A stretch of DNA of 54,115 bases from Flavobacteriaceae bacterium (lineage in GTDB: Bacteria > Bacteroidota > Bacteroidia > Flavobacteriales > Flavobacteriaceae). Positions within the stretch are counted from its first letter, which is position 1, and each line of letters begins with the position of its first letter. The position numbers and the translations under genes are program-made. Positions 19,018-40,116 of this stretch are shown here, in pieces. The notes under the pieces were generated by a model, which had not been told where the DNA came from, did no database searches, and saw nothing but the letters and a program-made list of their open reading frames with translations. The DNA lies in the NCBI GenBank assembly GCA_024635765.1, contig JAGXIE010000068.1:1-54115 (forward strand), given 5' to 3'.

Positions 19018-19091
<74 letters not shown>

Positions 19092-19164
19092 ATTCAAGAA
19101 TTAAACTGATTAATTCTGAAAAGTTAAAGAGGTTACACTCTATAGTGTGGCGACCTCTATTTTG

Positions 19165-19239
19165 TCGGGGTGGCAGGATTCGAACCTGCGACCTCCGCGT
19201 CCCAAACGCGGCGCGATAACCGGGCTACGCTACACCCCG
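19165..19239 (-). tRNA. tRNA-Pro (anticodon UGG)
   Basis: Acceptor CGGGGTG/CACCCCG, anticodon loop TTTGGGA on a CCGCG/CGCGG stem, and GGTTCGAATCC in the T arm. The C1-G72 type end and the TGG anticodon identify proline. The 3' CCA is not encoded. Confidence 0.95.
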
Positions 19240-19258
19240 AATTGATTATCTAATTTTG

Positions 19259-19343
19259 CGGAGAGTGTGGGATTCGAACCCACGCGACAGTTTCCCGTCG
19301 ACAGTTTAGCAAACTGCTCCATTAACCACTCTGGCAACTCTCC
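19259..19343 (-). tRNA. tRNA-Ser (anticodon GCU)
   Basis: Acceptor GGAGAGT/ACTCTCC, anticodon loop TGCTAAA on CAGTT/AACTG, a long variable arm (GTCGACGGGAAACTGTCGC region) typical of class II tRNAs, and GGTTCGAATCC. The GCT anticodon reads AGC/AGU. The 3' CCA is not encoded. Confidence 0.95.
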
Positions 19344-33581: not shown

Positions 33582-35156
33582 TTAAATTGACTTCTGCTTA
33601 TCCTTCTCTGTTTTTTCATCCGCTTGCGGTTCTAGATTGTCTTCTATTGGTGCAAATAAATCTATGTATGCTTTACCCAAATACTCGATCACATGGCTCG
33701 CAATTAAACTTTGATATCCTAAATCTTCAACAGCAATATCTGCAGACTTTCCATGAAGATAAACGCCAAAAACGACCGCATGCAATGGTTCGTAGCCTTG
33801 AGATAATAATCCAGTAAGTATTCCTGTTAAAACATCTCCAGTTCCTGCTGTAGCCAATCCTGGATTACCTGTAGAATTAACATATAATTTATCTTTAGAC
33901 ACAGTTATGGTATTGGAGCCCTTAATGACTACAATTAAGTTGTAGGTTTTAGAGAATTCTTTCACTTTTTTAAGTTTGTCAAAATCATCCTTCCACTTCC
34001 CTATCAATCGCTCCAATTCTTTTGGATGCGGAGTTAGAATTGTTTCTTTAGGCAATAATTTTAAAAACTCTTTATTTTTTGAAATTATATTTATGCCATC
34101 TGCATCGATTACTAATGGCACTTTATTTGACTTTAAAAAAACTTCAAATGCTTTGCTTGTTTTTGCATCTGTTCCAATGCCGATTCCAATTCCTATTGAT
34201 GTCGGTTCTATATCAAATTTTATCTCGGTAATTATGTCATTATCGGTATCAGTAATAACCATTGCTTCGTGAAAAGCAGTTTGCATAACCGTGTAACCAC
34301 ATTTCGGAACGTAAGCTGTTACTAAACCTGCTCCTGATGATAGCGCAGCCCTGCTCGATAAAACTACGGCACCTATTTTTCCATAACTGCCACCTATGAT
34401 TAAACTATGACCAAAACTACCCTTATGTGTGAACTTGTCACGAGGTTTGTAAACTTGGAGCATTTCCAATTTCCCTAATAGTTCAGCTTCGGTCTCGGTT
34501 GATTGAAAAAATTCAGGGTCGAGACCTATATTCAGAATTTCCCATTGTTGTGTGTATTTAGCTGTATCAGGTAAAAAGAACACTAATTTAGGTGAGGCAA
34601 AACTTAAGGTGTGATTTGCCCAAACAACCCCGTTCTCATCCTTTGGAACTTTATCGGTATATAAACCAGATGGCATGTCAATTGCTAAAGTAAATGCTTT
34701 TGATTTCTTGAAATGTTGGAATAAACCTTGAACCCATATGTTTGCTGGACGGTTCAAACCAATTCCAAATATGGCATCTATAATAATATCATCTACTCCT
34801 ATATCTGGAAAATCAGCTTCACAATTAAGCATTTCAGGCCATTTTTTAGTAGTCTCTTTAATTCGTTCATAGTTCACTAAAAAATCTTTTGAGCGCTTGT
34901 CACTGCAATTTACCACATAGGTTTTAACGTTGTAACCATGAGTAATTAGATGCCTTGCCACCACCAATCCATCACCACCATTATTCCCAATACCACAAAA
35001 CACATGAATCGGAACTTGTGCTCCTTGCATGCGAATATGTAACCAATTGAAAATCTGAATGCCAGCTCGTTCCATCAATTCTGTCGAAGAGATGTTTTGT
35101 TTTTCGGCTGTTATTTTATCTCCTTCATAAATCTGTTCTTTGGAAAATATCTTCAT
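33582..35156 (-). CDS. nnr: Bifunctional NAD(P)HX epimerase/dehydratase
   Basis: A 524-residue fused repair enzyme. The N-terminal epimerase half (to about 220) contains FCGIGNNGGDGLVVARHL; the C-terminal half (about 235-500) is the ADP- or ATP-dependent dehydratase with SFGHSLIIGGSYGKIGA, LTPHPKELERL and NPGLATAGTGD (431-441). Together they restore damaged NAD(P)H hydrates. The last 25 residues are a charged tail (EPQADEKTEKDKQ). The gene converges with the TlpA-like gene and is divergent from the threonine operon, whose leader begins about 105 bases beyond its start. Confidence 0.93.
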   Translation of the reverse strand: MKIFSKEQIYEGDKITAEKQNISSTELMERAGIQIFNWLHIRMQGAQVPIHVFCGIGNNGGDGLVVARHLITHGYNVKTYVVNCSDKRSKDFLVNYERIKETTKKWPEMLNCEADFPDIGVDDIIIDAIFGIGLNRPANIWVQGLFQHFKKSKAFTLAIDMPSGLYTDKVPKDENGVVWANHTLSFASPKLVFFLPDTAKYTQQWEILNIGLDPEFFQSTETEAELLGKLEMLQVYKPRDKFTHKGSFGHSLIIGGSYGKIGAVVLSSRAALSSGAGLVTAYVPKCGYTVMQTAFHEAMVITDTDNDIITEIKFDIEPTSIGIGIGIGTDAKTSKAFEVFLKSNKVPLVIDADGINIISKNKEFLKLLPKETILTPHPKELERLIGKWKDDFDKLKKVKEFSKTYNLIVVIKGSNTITVSKDKLYVNSTGNPGLATAGTGDVLTGILTGLLSQGYEPLHAVVFGVYLHGKSADIAVEDLGYQSLIASHVIEYLGKAYIDLFAPIEDNLEPQADEKTEKDKQKSI

Positions 35157-35234
35157 CGGAAAAGTTGTTTAACGAATAAATAGGTTATTCACTCCTAAAT
35201 TGGGCAATTAATTTTTTTATTACAGTAAAAATAA

Positions 35235-35242
35235 TACATTTG
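35235..35242 (+). promoter_or_regulatory. Putative threonine operon promoter (-7 box TACATTTG)
   Basis: TACATTTG is an exact TAnnTTTG match 20 bases before the leader-peptide ATG. No clear -33 TTG at the usual distance. Confidence 0.6.
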
Positions 35243-35261
35243 AAAGGTATTGCATAAAAAA

Positions 35262-35360
35262 ATGTCACACGTTAGTAACATCTCCACCGTAACTATTTCT
35301 TCCACTTCCTTGGAAGGCGTTACATCTGTGACTACTACCACTACAACCCTTTGGGGTTAA
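35262..35360 (+). CDS. Threonine-operon leader peptide
   Basis: A 32-codon frame, ATG at 35262 and TAA at 35358, 76 bases before thrA. It contains ten threonine codons, six of them consecutive (codons 24-29), plus two isoleucine and four valine codons. The last residues are LWG. Such a threonine-rich short frame directly before thrA is the classic sign of ribosome-mediated attenuation, as in enterobacterial ThrL, here in a flavobacterium. Its length, position and the fact that it follows a fitting promoter make a real translated leader likely. The sequence itself does not resemble ThrL beyond composition. Confidence 0.82.
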   Translation: MSHVSNISTVTISSTSLEGVTSVTTTTTTLWG

Positions 35361-35410
35361 TTGCTATAGTTTATCCCGTCCTTTTCATTTTTTTCATTTT
35401 ATTTGTATTT
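35289..35410 (+). promoter_or_regulatory. Possible attenuator hairpins in the threonine leader
   Basis: Three candidate structures can be drawn. First, GTAAC (35289-35293) with GTTAC (35319-35323) enclosing CTTCC/GGAAG. Second, AACCC (35345-35349) with GGGTT (35354-35358), next to the leader stop. Third, GGGGTTAA (35353-35360) with TTTATCCC (35370-35377), one mismatch and one G-T pair, followed by a T-rich tract (35381-35399) like a terminator. The second and third are mutually exclusive because they share GGGGTT. Stems are short and the switching logic is not resolved by eye. Confidence 0.45.
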
Positions 35411-35436
35411 AATAACCATTTTCATAACCTATCTAT

Positions 35437-37881
35437 ATGTTAGTATTAAAATTCGGAGGTACATCTGTCGGTTCGGCAAAGAATATCAATAATGTCATTT
35501 CGATTTTAGAAAAAAAATCGAAACAAAATAAAATTATATGTGTAGTATCTGCAATTGGAGGTGTCACTGATAAATTGCTAAAAGCAGGAACATTAGCCCA
35601 AAATAAGAACGAAACCTATCTTTCAGTATTTAAAGAAATTAAAACAATTCATATCAGCATAATTGATGAGTTGATTCCCAATAAAAGTGAATCTATAGCC
35701 GAACATCTTGAATCTAAATTCAACGGATTGAAAAGCCTTTTGGATGGCATTTATCTAATCAATGAATTATCACCAAAAACAACCGACAAATTAGTGAGCT
35801 ATGGTGAATTACTTTCGTCATACTTGATCACGCGAACGATGCAAAGTCGAAATTTGAATGCCGAATTAAAAAACAGTCAAGATTTGGTTGTTACTAATTC
35901 AAATTTCACAAAAGCAGACGTTAATTATAATCGCACTAATGAGAATATCAAAAAGTATTTTGAATCCGTAAGGCAACAAATCACAATATTACCTGGGTTT
36001 ATATCAAAATCCCATCTTGGGGAAATCACTACACTAGGACGTGGTGGTTCTGATTTTACAGCCTCAATCGTTGCTGCGGCACTTAAAGTTAAACAATTGG
36101 AAATATGGACGGATGTGAGCGGTATGTATACGGCAAATCCAAAATTAGTAAGGCAAGCATACCCTATCGATACGTTATCGTATCAGGAAGCAATGGAATT
36201 ATCGCATTTTGGAGCTAAAGTTTTGTACCCTCCAACCGTGCAGCCCGTTTTGGATTTGAATATTCCAATCCATATTAAAAACACTTTGGAACCGGAAGCT
36301 ACAGGAACAATTATTTCCCAAAAAGGTAACGGAAAGACCTCTCCAGCAAAAGGAATTAGTAATATCAGTAATATTGCATTATTGACCCTACAAGGCAGCG
36401 GGATGATCGGTATTCCTGGTTTTTCAAAGCGATTGTTCGAAACCTTGGCAAACGAAAAAATCAATGTTGTCTTGATCACGCAATCCTCTTCTGAACATTC
36501 AATTTGTTTTGGTATTGATGAAAAAGATGCCGAGCGAGCTCAAATTTCAGTTGATAATACTTTTGAAAATGAAATTTCATTGCGAAAAATTGATCCAATC
36601 ATAGTTGAGAAAGATTTATCGATCATTGCACTTGTTGGTGACAATATGAAAAGCCATCAAGGTATCAGTGGGCGCATGTTCAGTTCTCTCGGTAAAAACA
36701 ATATTAATGTCAGAGCAATTTCCCAAGGTGCTTCAGAGCGTAATATTTCAGCAGTTATTATGGAAAATGATGTCAAAAAAGCTTTAAATACATTGCATGA
36801 AGCCTTTTTCGAAGGGAACATAAAACAACTGAACGTCTTTATTACAGGTGTTGGGAATGTAGGTGAAAAATTGGTTGACCAGATCAGACAGCAGCGAAAA
36901 TACCTCAAGGAAAATTTAAAACTTAATTTGAGAGTCGTTGGATTATCCAATTCGCGAACCATGATTTTTAACGATGGCGGTTTGTCTCTTAAAGATTGGA
37001 AAGAACAATTGAAGGAAGGCAAACCGGCTTTACTTCTAGGTTTTATGGACGAAATAAAACGATTTAATCTGCGTAACAGTATTTTTGTGGATGTCACAGC
37101 AAATGAAGATATTTCTAATTTATATTCTGACTATTTGAAACAAAATATAGCTGTGGTTGCATGCAATAAAATAGCGTGCTCGAGTGACTATGAAGATTAC
37201 AGTGAATTGAAATATTTATCTAAAAAATATAGTGTACCATTTTTGTTTGAAACCAATGTAGGCGCAGGTTTACCAATAATTGACACATTGAACCACCTGA
37301 TAGTTTCAGGCGATAAAATTACTTCCATTCAAGCAGTTTTATCAGGAAGTTTGAATTTTGTGTTTAATAATTTTAATGACAACACTAAATTTCACGACGT
37401 GGTTAAACAGGCACAAACTGAAGGCTACACTGAACCAGATCCAAGAATTGATTTGAGTGGCGTCGATGTCGCTCGAAAAATCCTTATTTTGGCACGAGAA
37501 AGCGGTACAGAAATGAATCTGGAGGATATAGAAAATAAATCTTTCTTAACTAAAGATAATTTAGAAAGTAAATCAGTTGAAGATTTTTATAAAACTTTGG
37601 TTGTGGATGAAGACCATTTTCAAAAGCTATATGCTTCCGCGAAAGCGAACGACAGCCAATTAAAATATGTGGCAGAATTTATAGATGGAAAAGCAAAGGT
37701 TGGATTAAAGGAAATTCCCCAAGGTCATCCTTTTTACAATTTAGAAGGAAAAGACAATATAGTGATGTTTTATACCCAAAGATATCCCGAACAACCTTTG
37801 ATTATTAAAGGTGCCGGTGCTGGTGCAGAGGTTACGGCATCAGGATTGTTTGCTGATATTATTAGAGCTGGAAATAAATAA
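35437..37881 (+). CDS. thrA: Bifunctional aspartokinase/homoserine dehydrogenase
   Basis: An 814-residue fusion catalysing the first and third steps from aspartate to threonine. The kinase half opens LKFGGTSVGS; TTLGRGGSDFTA is its second motif. Two ACT domains lie around 310-460 (SGMIGIPGFSKRLFETLA), the usual sites of feedback control by threonine. The dehydrogenase half starts at about 467 with FITGVGNVGEKLV and contains GAGLPIIDTLNHL and SGSLNFVF. Length is that of E. coli ThrA (820). It is the first structural gene of thrABC, seven bases before thrB, and is preceded by the threonine-rich leader. Confidence 0.97.
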   Translation: MLVLKFGGTSVGSAKNINNVISILEKKSKQNKIICVVSAIGGVTDKLLKAGTLAQNKNETYLSVFKEIKTIHISIIDELIPNKSESIAEHLESKFNGLKSLLDGIYLINELSPKTTDKLVSYGELLSSYLITRTMQSRNLNAELKNSQDLVVTNSNFTKADVNYNRTNENIKKYFESVRQQITILPGFISKSHLGEITTLGRGGSDFTASIVAAALKVKQLEIWTDVSGMYTANPKLVRQAYPIDTLSYQEAMELSHFGAKVLYPPTVQPVLDLNIPIHIKNTLEPEATGTIISQKGNGKTSPAKGISNISNIALLTLQGSGMIGIPGFSKRLFETLANEKINVVLITQSSSEHSICFGIDEKDAERAQISVDNTFENEISLRKIDPIIVEKDLSIIALVGDNMKSHQGISGRMFSSLGKNNINVRAISQGASERNISAVIMENDVKKALNTLHEAFFEGNIKQLNVFITGVGNVGEKLVDQIRQQRKYLKENLKLNLRVVGLSNSRTMIFNDGGLSLKDWKEQLKEGKPALLLGFMDEIKRFNLRNSIFVDVTANEDISNLYSDYLKQNIAVVACNKIACSSDYEDYSELKYLSKKYSVPFLFETNVGAGLPIIDTLNHLIVSGDKITSIQAVLSGSLNFVFNNFNDNTKFHDVVKQAQTEGYTEPDPRIDLSGVDVARKILILARESGTEMNLEDIENKSFLTKDNLESKSVEDFYKTLVVDEDHFQKLYASAKANDSQLKYVAEFIDGKAKVGLKEIPQGHPFYNLEGKDNIVMFYTQRYPEQPLIIKGAGAGAEVTASGLFADIIRAGNK

Positions 37882-37888
37882 GAGAATT

Positions 37889-38821
37889 ATGATTAAAAAA
37901 GAAATCAAAATATTCTCGCCTGCAACTGTTGCCAATGTTTCTTGCGGATATGACGTCCTTGGGTTTTGTTTGGATACCATCGGTGATGAAATGACCATAA
38001 GAAAAACTGATAAAAAAGGTATTGTCATCACGAAAATTGAAGGCTATGATTTACCTTTTGAAACCATAAAAAATGTTGCTGGTGTTTCAGCGTTAGCACT
38101 TTATGATGATGCGAAACCAGACTATGGGTTTGAAATTGAAATTTTTAAGAAAATAAAACCAGGAAGCGGTATTGGAAGCAGCTCTGCTAGTGCTTCAGGT
38201 AGTGTTTTTGCAATGAACGAATTACTTGGGCGACCTTACAATAAAACCCAGCTAACTAATTTTGCAATGAAAGGTGAAGCATTGGCAAGTGGTTGCGAAC
38301 ATGCCGATAACATTGCACCTGGAATTTTTGGAGGTTTTACGTTAGTAAAAAGTATATCTCCGTTGCAAATCTTACAATTGCCTACACCTCCCGATTTATA
38401 TGCTACAATCATTCATCCACAAATTGAAATAAAAACCTCTGAAGCTAGGTCTATATTACCTAAAGAGATTTCTTTGAAAAATGCGATCACTCAATGGGCT
38501 AATGTTGGAAGTTTGGTTCACGCACTGCATACCAGTGATTATGAATTGATTCGACGTTCTCTTGAAGATGTTATCGTCGAACCATTTCGAAGTCAATTGA
38601 TTCCATATTTCGCGAATGTTAAGAAAATGGCTCTTAATTCTGGAGCACTGGGATGTGGTATTTCCGGTTCTGGACCTTCGATTTTTGCGCTATCAAAAGG
38701 AATTGAAACAGCGAAAGAAGTCGAGAGTGCCATGAAAGCAGTCTATTCCCAAACTGAAATTGGATTTCACACCTATGTTTCTAAAATTAATGTAGAAGGC
38801 ATGAAAATTATTCAAAAATGA
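37889..38821 (+). CDS. thrB: Homoserine kinase
   Basis: A 310-residue GHMP-family kinase that phosphorylates homoserine. It begins FSPATVANVSCGYDVLG, and the ATP loop is KPGSGIGSSSASASGS (about 91-106); the C-terminal motif GCGISGSGPS is present. I chose the ATG at 37889, seven bases after the thrA stop; the longer frame from 37811 overlaps thrA by 70 bases and adds 26 non-homologous residues. The stop TGA overlaps the thrC start as ATGA, a translational-coupling arrangement. Confidence 0.96.
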   Translation: MIKKEIKIFSPATVANVSCGYDVLGFCLDTIGDEMTIRKTDKKGIVITKIEGYDLPFETIKNVAGVSALALYDDAKPDYGFEIEIFKKIKPGSGIGSSSASASGSVFAMNELLGRPYNKTQLTNFAMKGEALASGCEHADNIAPGIFGGFTLVKSISPLQILQLPTPPDLYATIIHPQIEIKTSEARSILPKEISLKNAITQWANVGSLVHALHTSDYELIRRSLEDVIVEPFRSQLIPYFANVKKMALNSGALGCGISGSGPSIFALSKGIETAKEVESAMKAVYSQTEIGFHTYVSKINVEGMKIIQK

Positions 38822-40116
38822 ATTATTACTCACTAAACAAAACGGCTCCCAATTCATCCTTCAAAGATGCAGTCATCAAAGGTTTAGCACCAGATAAAGG
38901 CTTATATTTTCCTGAATCGATAACCGCTTTGCCAAGATCATTTTTTGACAAAATAGATGTGTTATCTTATGAAGACATAGCGTTTGAATGCATCAAACAA
39001 TTCGTATCACCTGATATTCCTGAATCAATTTTAAAAAAGATCATTGAAGATACACTATCATTTGATTTTCCAATCGTGGAAATCAATAAAGATATATCAA
39101 CACTTGAACTGTTTCATGGACCAACCATGGCATTTAAAGATGTTGGTGCCCGATTTATGGCAAGATGTCTGGAATATTTCAATGAAGAAAAAACTAATGA
39201 AGTCACCGTTTTGGTAGCGACCTCTGGAGATACTGGAGGTGCAGTGGCAAATGGTTTTTTAGGTGTAAAAGGCGTTAACGTTGTTATTTTATATCCAAGT
39301 GGTAAAGTGAGTGATATCCAAGAAAAACAATTGACCACACTCAAAAAAAACATCACGGCTTTGGAAGTAGATGGTGTTTTTGACGATTGCCAAGACATGG
39401 TCAAGCGTGCATTTTTAGATGAAAAGTTAACGAGTAAAATGCAATTGACATCAGCAAATTCAATAAATGTTGCACGCTGGTTGCCTCAAATGTTTTATTT
39501 CTTTTTTGCTTATAAACAACTACACAAAACTCATAAGAATATTGTGTTTTCAGTGCCAAGTGGAAACTTTGGTAATATCTGTGCAGGCATGATGGCGCAG
39601 CAATTGGGACTGCCTATTCATCATTTTATCGCATCGAATAATGAGAACAATGTAGTGACGGAATATCTGACCACACAATTATACCAACCAAAACCTTCCA
39701 TACAGACGATATCAAATGCAATGGACGTGGGAAATCCGAGTAATTTTATTAGAATACAGGAAATTTATAAGAATGATTTTGAAGCCTTGAAAAAGAATCT
39801 ATCTTCTTATAGTTTTTCGGATGAGGAGACCCGAGAAGCTTTAAAAGAACTGTACAATGAATCTTCATATATAGCTGATCCTCATGGTGCTGTTGGGTAT
39901 TTGGGATGTAAAGAATATTTGAGGTCAAATCAGGATGCTCATTGTGTGTTTTTGGAAACCGCGCATCCTACCAAGTTTTTAGATGTTGTGGAAGATGTCA
40001 TACGGGAGAATATTGATTTACCACCTCAAATAGCGGCTGTGATGGACAAGAAAAAAAGATCCATTCACATCAGTTCCTACAATGAATTAAGGGACTTTTT
40101 ATTAAGTCGTATTTAA
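38818..40116 (+). CDS. thrC: Threonine synthase
   Basis: A 432-residue PLP enzyme converting O-phosphohomoserine to threonine. HGPTMAFKDVGARF near residue 100 contains the Lys that binds PLP, and ATSGDTGGAVANGF and VPSGNFGNICAG are the phosphate and substrate loops. Length and start (MNYYSLNKTAPNSSFKDAV) match the E. coli-type branch. It overlaps thrB by four bases, and an acetyltransferase gene follows three bases after the stop, so all share a transcript. Confidence 0.96.
   Translation: MNYYSLNKTAPNSSFKDAVIKGLAPDKGLYFPESITALPRSFFDKIDVLSYEDIAFECIKQFVSPDIPESILKKIIEDTLSFDFPIVEINKDISTLELFHGPTMAFKDVGARFMARCLEYFNEEKTNEVTVLVATSGDTGGAVANGFLGVKGVNVVILYPSGKVSDIQEKQLTTLKKNITALEVDGVFDDCQDMVKRAFLDEKLTSKMQLTSANSINVARWLPQMFYFFFAYKQLHKTHKNIVFSVPSGNFGNICAGMMAQQLGLPIHHFIASNNENNVVTEYLTTQLYQPKPSIQTISNAMDVGNPSNFIRIQEIYKNDFEALKKNLSSYSFSDEETREALKELYNESSYIADPHGAVGYLGCKEYLRSNQDAHCVFLETAHPTKFLDVVEDVIRENIDLPPQIAAVMDKKKRSIHISSYNELRDFLLSRI

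Follow-up and report, generated by a model that had tools for sequence, protein, structure and literature searches.

A conserved threonine-rich leader without a strong terminator precedes thrABC in most sampled Flavobacteriaceae and very probably acts as an attenuator that senses Thr-tRNA

Amino-acid attenuation is a textbook mechanism established in Gammaproteobacteria, and in the proteobacterial thrL a short Thr/Ile-rich leader ORF lies between the promoter and thrA, with its regulatory codons near the stop. Bacteroidota have unusual promoters and make little use of Shine-Dalgarno sequences; Vitreschak et al. in 2004 reportedly predicted some attenuators in Bacteroidetes. Within the phylum, the Bacteroid-trp RNA (RF01692) has a table entry in PMC2864571 and is discussed in PMC6414381, while PMC9723704 reports strong clues to leader-peptide attenuation upstream of F. 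psychrophilum amino-acid operons and names pheA and hisG among the 5′ elements conserved in other genera. Leader-peptide-like sORFs are reported from 5′ UTRs of Bacteroides thetaiotaomicron (PMC7366714). Outside the phylum, the account of actinobacterial cys leaders in PMC1262725 describes them without terminators, and its authors suggest Rho. Among the open-licence matches listed on threonine leader-peptide attenuation in Bacteroidetes or Flavobacteria, we recognised no paper on a thrA leader element.

The window analysed here, a 54,115-nucleotide contig of a marine Flavobacteriaceae bacterium (JAGXIE010000068.1, assembly GCA_024635765.1), carries thrABC preceded by a short leader ORF (Table 1). 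A sequence-only reading of the window had pointed to this 32-codon frame, rich in Thr with additional Ile and Val codons, to an exact TAnnTTTG box upstream of it and to a T-rich tract beyond it, and all three were confirmed: the ORF starts with ATG at 35262 and stops with TAA at 35358–35360, its 32 codons include 10 for Thr (six consecutive), 2 for Ile and 4 for Val, and the T-rich tract occupies 35382–35405. A run of at least four consecutive Thr occurs in this ORF alone among the 436 ATG-started ORFs of 15–60 amino acids on both strands of the window. The gene for an NAD(P)H-hydrate repair enzyme (YjeF_N + Carb_kinase; 33582–35156, minus strand) reads away from the thr promoter.

Table 1 Features of the thr leader and operon in the window
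Feature	Position	Strand	Remark
TAnnTTTG promoter −7 box of the thr operon (TACATTTG)	35235..35242	+	exact match
Leader ORF MSHVSNISTVTISSTSLEGVTSVTTTTTTLWG*, 32 sense codons + TAA	35262..35360	+	frame open in relatives too
P2 arm as a whole	35289..35323	+	inside leader ORF
P2 outer stem GTAAC/GTTAC	35289-35293 / 35319-35323	+	one MFE fold and 15 °C fold; absent at 37 °C
P2 inner stem TCTTCCA/TGGAAGG	35298-35304 / 35311-35317	+	within ORF; both MFE folds
Six-Thr run	35331..35348	+	last codon ACC (35346-35348) within 5′ arm of P3
P3 hairpin AACCC-TTTG-GGGTT	35345..35358	+	overlaps leader stop; MFE folds
Alternative hairpin GGGGTTAATTG-CTA-TAGTTTATCCC	35353..35377	+	shares P3 G-run; −7.5 kcal/mol, MFE at 37 °C
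Untranslated leader–thrA stretch	35361..35436	+	G-poor, T-rich: 14 C, 4 G in 76 nt
thrA, bifunctional aspartokinase-homoserine dehydrogenase	35437..37881	+	Pfam AA_kinase, ACT, NAD_binding_3, Homoserine_dh
thrB, homoserine kinase (GHMP kinase)	37889..38821	+	Pfam
thrC, threonine synthase	38818..40116	+	Pfam Thr_synth_N, PALP, THR4_C

Searched as a whole against Rfam at the gathering score, the window returned three tRNAs only; a search of 35100–35500 up to E 5 gave only four unrelated sub-threshold matches, and eight related loci gave no match at the gathering score. Neither RF00506 (Thr_leader) nor T-box had a covariance-model match in the window, in 35100–35500 or in the eight related loci. 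Three consecutive tRNA genes lie at 19018–19343 of the window (minus strand).

Folding the window's leader, a check named in the sequence-only reading, brought out both P3 and the overlapping alternative hairpin, with an overall stability like that of shuffled sequences (z −0.89; 36 of 200 shuffles were as good). Which of the two hairpins forms depends on the fold, as P3 appears in one MFE fold and at 15 °C and the alternative at 37 °C; because folds of differing stretches and temperatures disagree in this way, comparison with relatives was needed. In the window's own group of four leaders the alternative hairpin has energies of −7.5 (the window, L001), −8.4 (L034), −3.5 (L004) and −3.1 kcal/mol (L033), so that it is stable in two of the four, and it is not conserved in other leaders. 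The T-rich tract begins 4 nt (GTCC) beyond it. No P4 (the AU-rich hairpin described below) was seen by eye in the untranslated stretch 35361–35436. The window copy thus retains the ORF, the Thr run, the P2 inner stem and P3, carries an extra hairpin and is without a visible P4; it is a rather divergent member, in which the family-wide mechanism may be altered. Support for its weak hairpins comes from the relatives, the window alone being insufficient.

The comparative sample comprised 200 thrA upstream regions including the window's own, 166 of them from the family. They came from 80 loci that were the best matches of one search across genome contigs, from 29 loci and 80 stretches of family genomes (those at the head of a list that matched 293 of 299 genomes) and from 34 stretches of an order-wide search. 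The paralogue L003 and L002, in which the thrA start is uncovered, were left out, and regions identical over their last 230 nt were reduced to one copy. Close relatives are over-represented in the sample, which also retains near-duplicates; some tests used a set below 85% identity. Leaders were selected without any condition on an ORF, by a CCC-N3–7-GGG hairpin and a TAnnTTTG box 40–230 nt upstream of it, and those covered lie at most 420 nt from thrA. The selection was passed by 154 of the 200 regions. The 46 unselected regions are mixed: a variant hairpin with a Thr leader is present in some (for example, L160, L185 and L222), five have strong terminators (L221 and L224–L227), and others are leaderless by eye.

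Across the 154 leaders, the frame that ends in the first arm of P3 is ATG-open in 151 (9 and 10 for the other two frames), and its 13 codons before the hairpin hold a mean of 5.27 Thr, versus 0.21 and 0.04 in the other frames, with at least three Thr among these last 13 codons in 148 leaders. The first hairpin codon is ACC in 153 of the selected regions. Thr peaks at codons −6 to −4 (0.53–0.63) and at −1 and 0 (0.68 and 0.99) relative to the hairpin, Ile is the second commonest residue in the codons before it (18%), and the stop codon begins 6–30 nt past the start of the ACC codon, in the P3 loop or soon after. Leaders of only 18 codons, L096 (MKKRQTIFTSFFIITLLG, Olleya), L131 and the similar L091 (Olleya), keep the Ile/Thr codons, the ORF and P3; they are too short for the P2 arm, and the gap and P4 are visible by eye in L091 and L096.

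These data are strong evidence that selection maintains the stretch as a reading frame whose Thr codons adjoin P3. Because the Thr frame is open, Thr-rich and ACC-anchored in nearly all of the 154 leaders, regulation through leader translation is very likely, conservation being our ground for taking the ORF to be translated. The comparison of leaders proposed with the sequence-only reading found that most of the Flavobacteriaceae sampled, and members of some other families, keep the Thr codons and the frame, and its view of the Thr/Ile-rich leader as a sensor of Thr-tRNA charging is supported by the conserved frame, the Thr codons and their contact with the hairpin. We hold with considerable confidence that the leader would sense charged Thr-tRNA via its leader peptide, and Ile-tRNA is probably sensed as well. 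That the Thr run is a functionless product of chance would suit a window leader that folds no better than its shuffles, but the frame conserved in 151 of 154 leaders and the Thr codons kept before the hairpin leave this reading with practically no probability.

In the main family clade two conserved peptide words, LNQN and IFGT, come from the early leader codons and the codons just ahead of the Thr run; as RNA they can pair over most of their length (helix Pm, z 3.7–6.9), and because both words pair in this way their conservation need not be peptide-driven. In some leaders (for example, L019 and L024) the Ile-Phe-Gly codons TATTTTTG in the ORF, about 20 nt before P3, fit the TAnnTTTG box, and a second match, TATCTTTG, stands upstream of P4 in L013, L019 and L020; these internal matches could be chance or secondary promoters.

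Covariation was assessed by arm-swap tests on 99 non-redundant leaders, including a segment-pair scan with 24 permutations per z (305 pairs, s.d. of z 1.9, 10 below −4 and 1 above +4), and by a double-change test on 43 ungapped relatives. P2, the hairpin within the ORF, gave an arm-swap z of −8.1 in that scan and 12 double-change types across its 8 base pairs (z 6.9), and P4, the AU-rich hairpin beyond the gap, gave −7.9 and 13 types (z 6.0). Pm, pairing the first codons with those preceding the Thr run, had arm-swap z values of −4.8 to −6.9 and 7 double-change types (z 3.7). P1, which would join the 5′ UTR to sequence beyond P3, is more weakly supported (z −3.5, 2 of 5,000 permutations; z −4.7 with flat controls; P = 0.098 against the ten nearest relatives). 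P3 itself has 3–9 bp in the 154 leaders (4–6 in 133), a loop of 3–5 nt and a mean energy of −6.2 kcal/mol; its arm swap with extension gave z −4.0, but P was 0.38 when the ten closest relatives served as the reference, in comparison sets picked by ACCC..GGGT, in which P3 is therefore invariant by construction.

P1, P2, Pm and P4 are mutually compatible, being nested or adjacent, and the stretches of the ORF, P3 and P4 are more structured than shuffles (mean z −1.52, −1.42 and −1.54, with z below −1 for P4 in 80 of 115 leaders). Some pair signals clash with a simple nested fold: the ORF start with the gap (−84 × +8) gave z −4.8 at a weak pairing energy of −1.27 kcal/mol and would compete with Pm, and two four-pair helices on the P3 G-run gave z 8.6 and 6.5 with one double-change type each. 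A competitor of P4, in which the Ile-Thr-Thr codons at the P3 base would pair with the P4 5′ arm, was rejected, its signals being weak (−18 × +26, z −3.1, and P3a × +26, z −2.8, in the segment-pair scan; a seven-pair helix with z 3.0 and six double-change types in the 43 relatives) and its pairing broken in L071.

The arm-swap signals at P1, Pm, P2, the P3 extension and P4 would also suit an RNA fold of P1, Pm, P2 and P3 that regulates as a riboswitch or protein-binding element, with the ORF incidental, as would the word ACATAT, found in the gap 9–11 nt past the hairpin in all 18 printed members with L2xx numbers. We consider this very improbable, given how rarely the frame is closed or poor in Thr, the short leaders that keep the ORF where P2 has no room, and the lack of any Rfam match, T-box included.

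Beyond P3, the gap that reaches to P4 holds less structure than its shuffled versions do (mean z +0.69, SE 0.06, n = 115), and positions +7 to +19 contain no G in 98 of 115 leaders, one in 16 and two in a single leader, the window having one. Over the 70 nt that follow P3 the ratio of C to G is 2.03 (n = 152), compared with 1.08 in 40 other thrA regions, which include a few with P3 (for example, L009 and L038), and 1.14 in 28 upstream regions of the window; it is 1.8 in the leader ORF, so the C-over-G bias is not specific to the gap. In the window, the C bias of the stretch is equalled or exceeded by 2 of the 28 upstream regions, thrA's own perhaps among them. A 12-mer of the gap is matched at 9 or more of its 12 letters in 39 of 160 leaders (1.7 expected), the consensus having been built on those very data. 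Taken together, the conserved core reads as Thr/Ile codons adjoining P3, then an unstructured, nearly G-free gap, then, in most leaders tested, the covarying P4. P3 with ACATAT was also tried as a module of other operons and rejected (21 of 199 family genomes, versus 16 for a reversed control); of nine such loci inspected, three were Thr leaders, all upstream of an aspartokinase-type ORF, and six were not Thr leaders. No ilv leader was seen upstream of ilvD.

The sequence-only reading had taken the two hairpins sharing GGGGTT, with the T-rich tract, as a mutually exclusive switch, which amounts to a classical attenuator with P3 as antiterminator and 35353–35377 as terminator before the tract at 35382–35405. 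We scanned 160 leaders to 75 nt beyond P3, and thr controls across 250 nt, for hairpins followed by U. Energies of −8 or lower were found in only 2 of the 160 (0.4 expected), whereas all six controls reached −13 or lower (the His leader of this genome scored −13.2, the five thr leaders −16.1 to −17.4); the window's leader scored +0.5, in a scan that needs a U-rich tail directly at the stem and thus leaves the hairpin at 35353–35377 outside. Weak candidates exceeded shuffles (−5 or lower in 14 of 160 versus 3.2; −3 or lower in 33 versus 9.9), and the best 25 of them run via P3 or P4, where a weak intrinsic terminator is conceivable. P3 as a terminator was rejected, since its tail is not U-rich (score −1.37 versus a null of −1.48), with 4.13 T in the first 9 nt past it, slightly over the regional average of 3.45.

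Taken with the 30 nt that follow it, the G-run folds less well than dinucleotide shuffles across 154 leaders (mean z +0.61; above 1 in 56 and below −1 in 7), which argues against the proposed switch, and in 115 leaders the G-arm formed duplexes with downstream windows no better than shuffled sequence did. P3 and a G-arm/pyrimidine hairpin as alternatives are without support outside the window's group. What stands of the earlier proposal is that hairpins sharing GGGGTT are present in the window and stable there and in L034; they are weak in L004 and L033 and unconserved elsewhere, and its own remark that the stalling logic fits poorly was right. Classical wiring, with a strong terminator and a conserved mutually exclusive hairpin, is thus not supported by the sequences compared. 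It would draw on the stable alternative hairpins of the window and L034, the former displacing P3 at 37 °C, on T-rich sequence that follows after GTCC, on at least three G of the run being paired in the MFE fold of 126 of 154 leaders when the other P3 arm was omitted, on the excess of weak hairpin-plus-U candidates, and on canonical attenuators at thr in another family (L221, L224–L227) and at His in the window's genome. Against these stand the poor folding of the G-run, the rarity of strong terminators with P3 tails at null level, and the missing stable alternative in two of the window's group of four, and we regard the classical reading as improbable.

The His attenuator of the window's own genome (L229, C122) lies upstream of hisG and is canonical, with the leader MTFIQSHHHHFHTGTQAS* and the terminator AAACCGTTTGAGTAAATCAAGCGGTTT followed by a T-run (−13.2 kcal/mol); a single genome thus combines it with a Thr leader that has no strong terminator.

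The leader also shows a regular position relative to promoter and gene. An extended promoter, A[AG]TAATAC[AT]TTT[GC], is present in 95 of the 134 unique family regions that bear a leader, at a median of 208 nt before thrA and in none of the 95 within 90 nt, and in 10 of 32 unselected family regions, seven times at 33–48 nt before thrA and otherwise at −96, −118 and −166. Because the same extended promoter sits close to thrA in seven of those ten unselected regions, the leader has the look of a unit that can be inserted between thrA and a single type of promoter. The distance from P3 to thrA has a median of 99 nt (IQR 93–100) and exceeds 150 nt in 8 of 154 leaders (164–292 nt).

This tight spacing also suits a translational or mRNA-stability switch, in which a leader ribosome that has stalled would alter initiation at thrA or the stability of the message. 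Such a post-transcriptional output is the main rival to termination; the near-constant distance and the covarying P4 fairly near the thrA start speak for it, and mycobacterial polycysteine leaders, which according to Canestrari in 2020 reportedly attenuate operon expression, offer a parallel. We judge it unlikely, as eight leaders lie well away from thrA and no strong helix but P4 and P1 was found within about 66 nt past P3, in a scan that ends before the thrA start.

The reading we prefer, somewhat more in favour than in doubt, is a cis-acting, ribosome-mediated attenuator of thrABC in which stalling in the leader would control premature transcription termination, possibly by Rho. When threonine is plentiful, the ribosome would complete the leader and depart at the stop in or just past P3; with the ribosome gone, P3 would close and the naked gap be exposed, and transcription would end in the leader, possibly via Rho. 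When threonine is short, the ribosome would park on the Thr run against P3, near RNA polymerase, and bar the termination factor, so that thrABC would be transcribed. P3 may be a pause hairpin that holds ribosome and polymerase in step; the size of the ribosome footprint would put a ribosome on the first Thr run just clear of P3. The Thr sensor in this scheme is well supported, and we infer the output step, for which premature termination is the probable form. Rho is the leading candidate for the factor on three grounds, namely the lack of a strong terminator, the unstructured and G-poor nature of the gap, and a rho gene in the genome (a TIGR00767 match over the cut-off, partial at a contig end); we name it only tentatively because the leader ORF is nearly as rich in C over G as the gap.

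Leaders of the P3 type extend beyond the family, to many of L195–L222 in other families and, at class level, to L245, L251 and L263, with L259 and L264 added by eye; in L250 both the hairpin and ACATAT are present, but the scan gave no Thr ORF starting with ATG. In class-level L258 and L261 the GGG arm comes first at the stop region, after the Thr codons (ACGGGGTGACCCGT and ACGGGGTGATCCCGT). Canonical thr leaders are found in other Bacteroidota (L221 and L224–L227 by score; L255, L257, L260 and L265 by eye), Thr-rich in L224–L227, L255 and L257, with L221 being without a Thr ORF by scan, and one sister family, f5, has both types. It is a speculative possibility, which we rate as doubtful, that Bacteroidia hold an ancient attenuator class without a strong terminator, coexisting with canonical attenuators, in which a ribosome at the ACC-anchored mini-hairpin would shield a G-free conserved site from Rho or another termination or processing factor. 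If so, one would expect a protected single-stranded site about 10 nt past the hairpin, ACATAT-like in distant members, and the mix in f5 would look as though one thr attenuator type had replaced the other. If a conserved bacteroidotal version does work without terminator/antiterminator switching, these leaders would provide a natural comparative system for termination control by a stalled ribosome alone. They also supply, in P3, gap and P4, a concrete, testable RNA element for annotation and, within one genome, a contrast pair of canonical His and non-canonical Thr leaders.

Sequence comparison shows a leader that is real and conserved and that very probably works as an attenuator sensing Thr-tRNA; set beside the systems already described, its novelty lies in a conserved plan that lacks a strong terminator rather than in the leader peptide as such. 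Like thrL (RF00506), the flavobacterial leader has a Thr/Ile-rich ORF between promoter and thrA with regulatory codons close to the stop; unlike it, it is without a strong U-run terminator, a conserved antiterminator or an Rfam match. Canonical thr leaders of other Bacteroidota likewise stand before a related thrA but have a strong terminator and were not selected for an ACC-anchored P3. The Bacteroid-trp RNA (RF01692), from the same phylum and with leader-peptide attenuation proposed in the published descriptions, differs in its amino acid and in having an Rfam match, and the F. psychrophilum candidates, as presented in PMC9723704, share the family and the placing of leader peptides before amino-acid operons. 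The actinobacterial cys leaders, as characterised in PMC1262725, resemble it in having runs of regulatory codons near the stop and no conserved terminator hairpin; they differ in using Cys rather than Thr, and whereas their polyY motifs are reported there as unconserved, P3, the gap and P4 are conserved in the flavobacterial thr leader.
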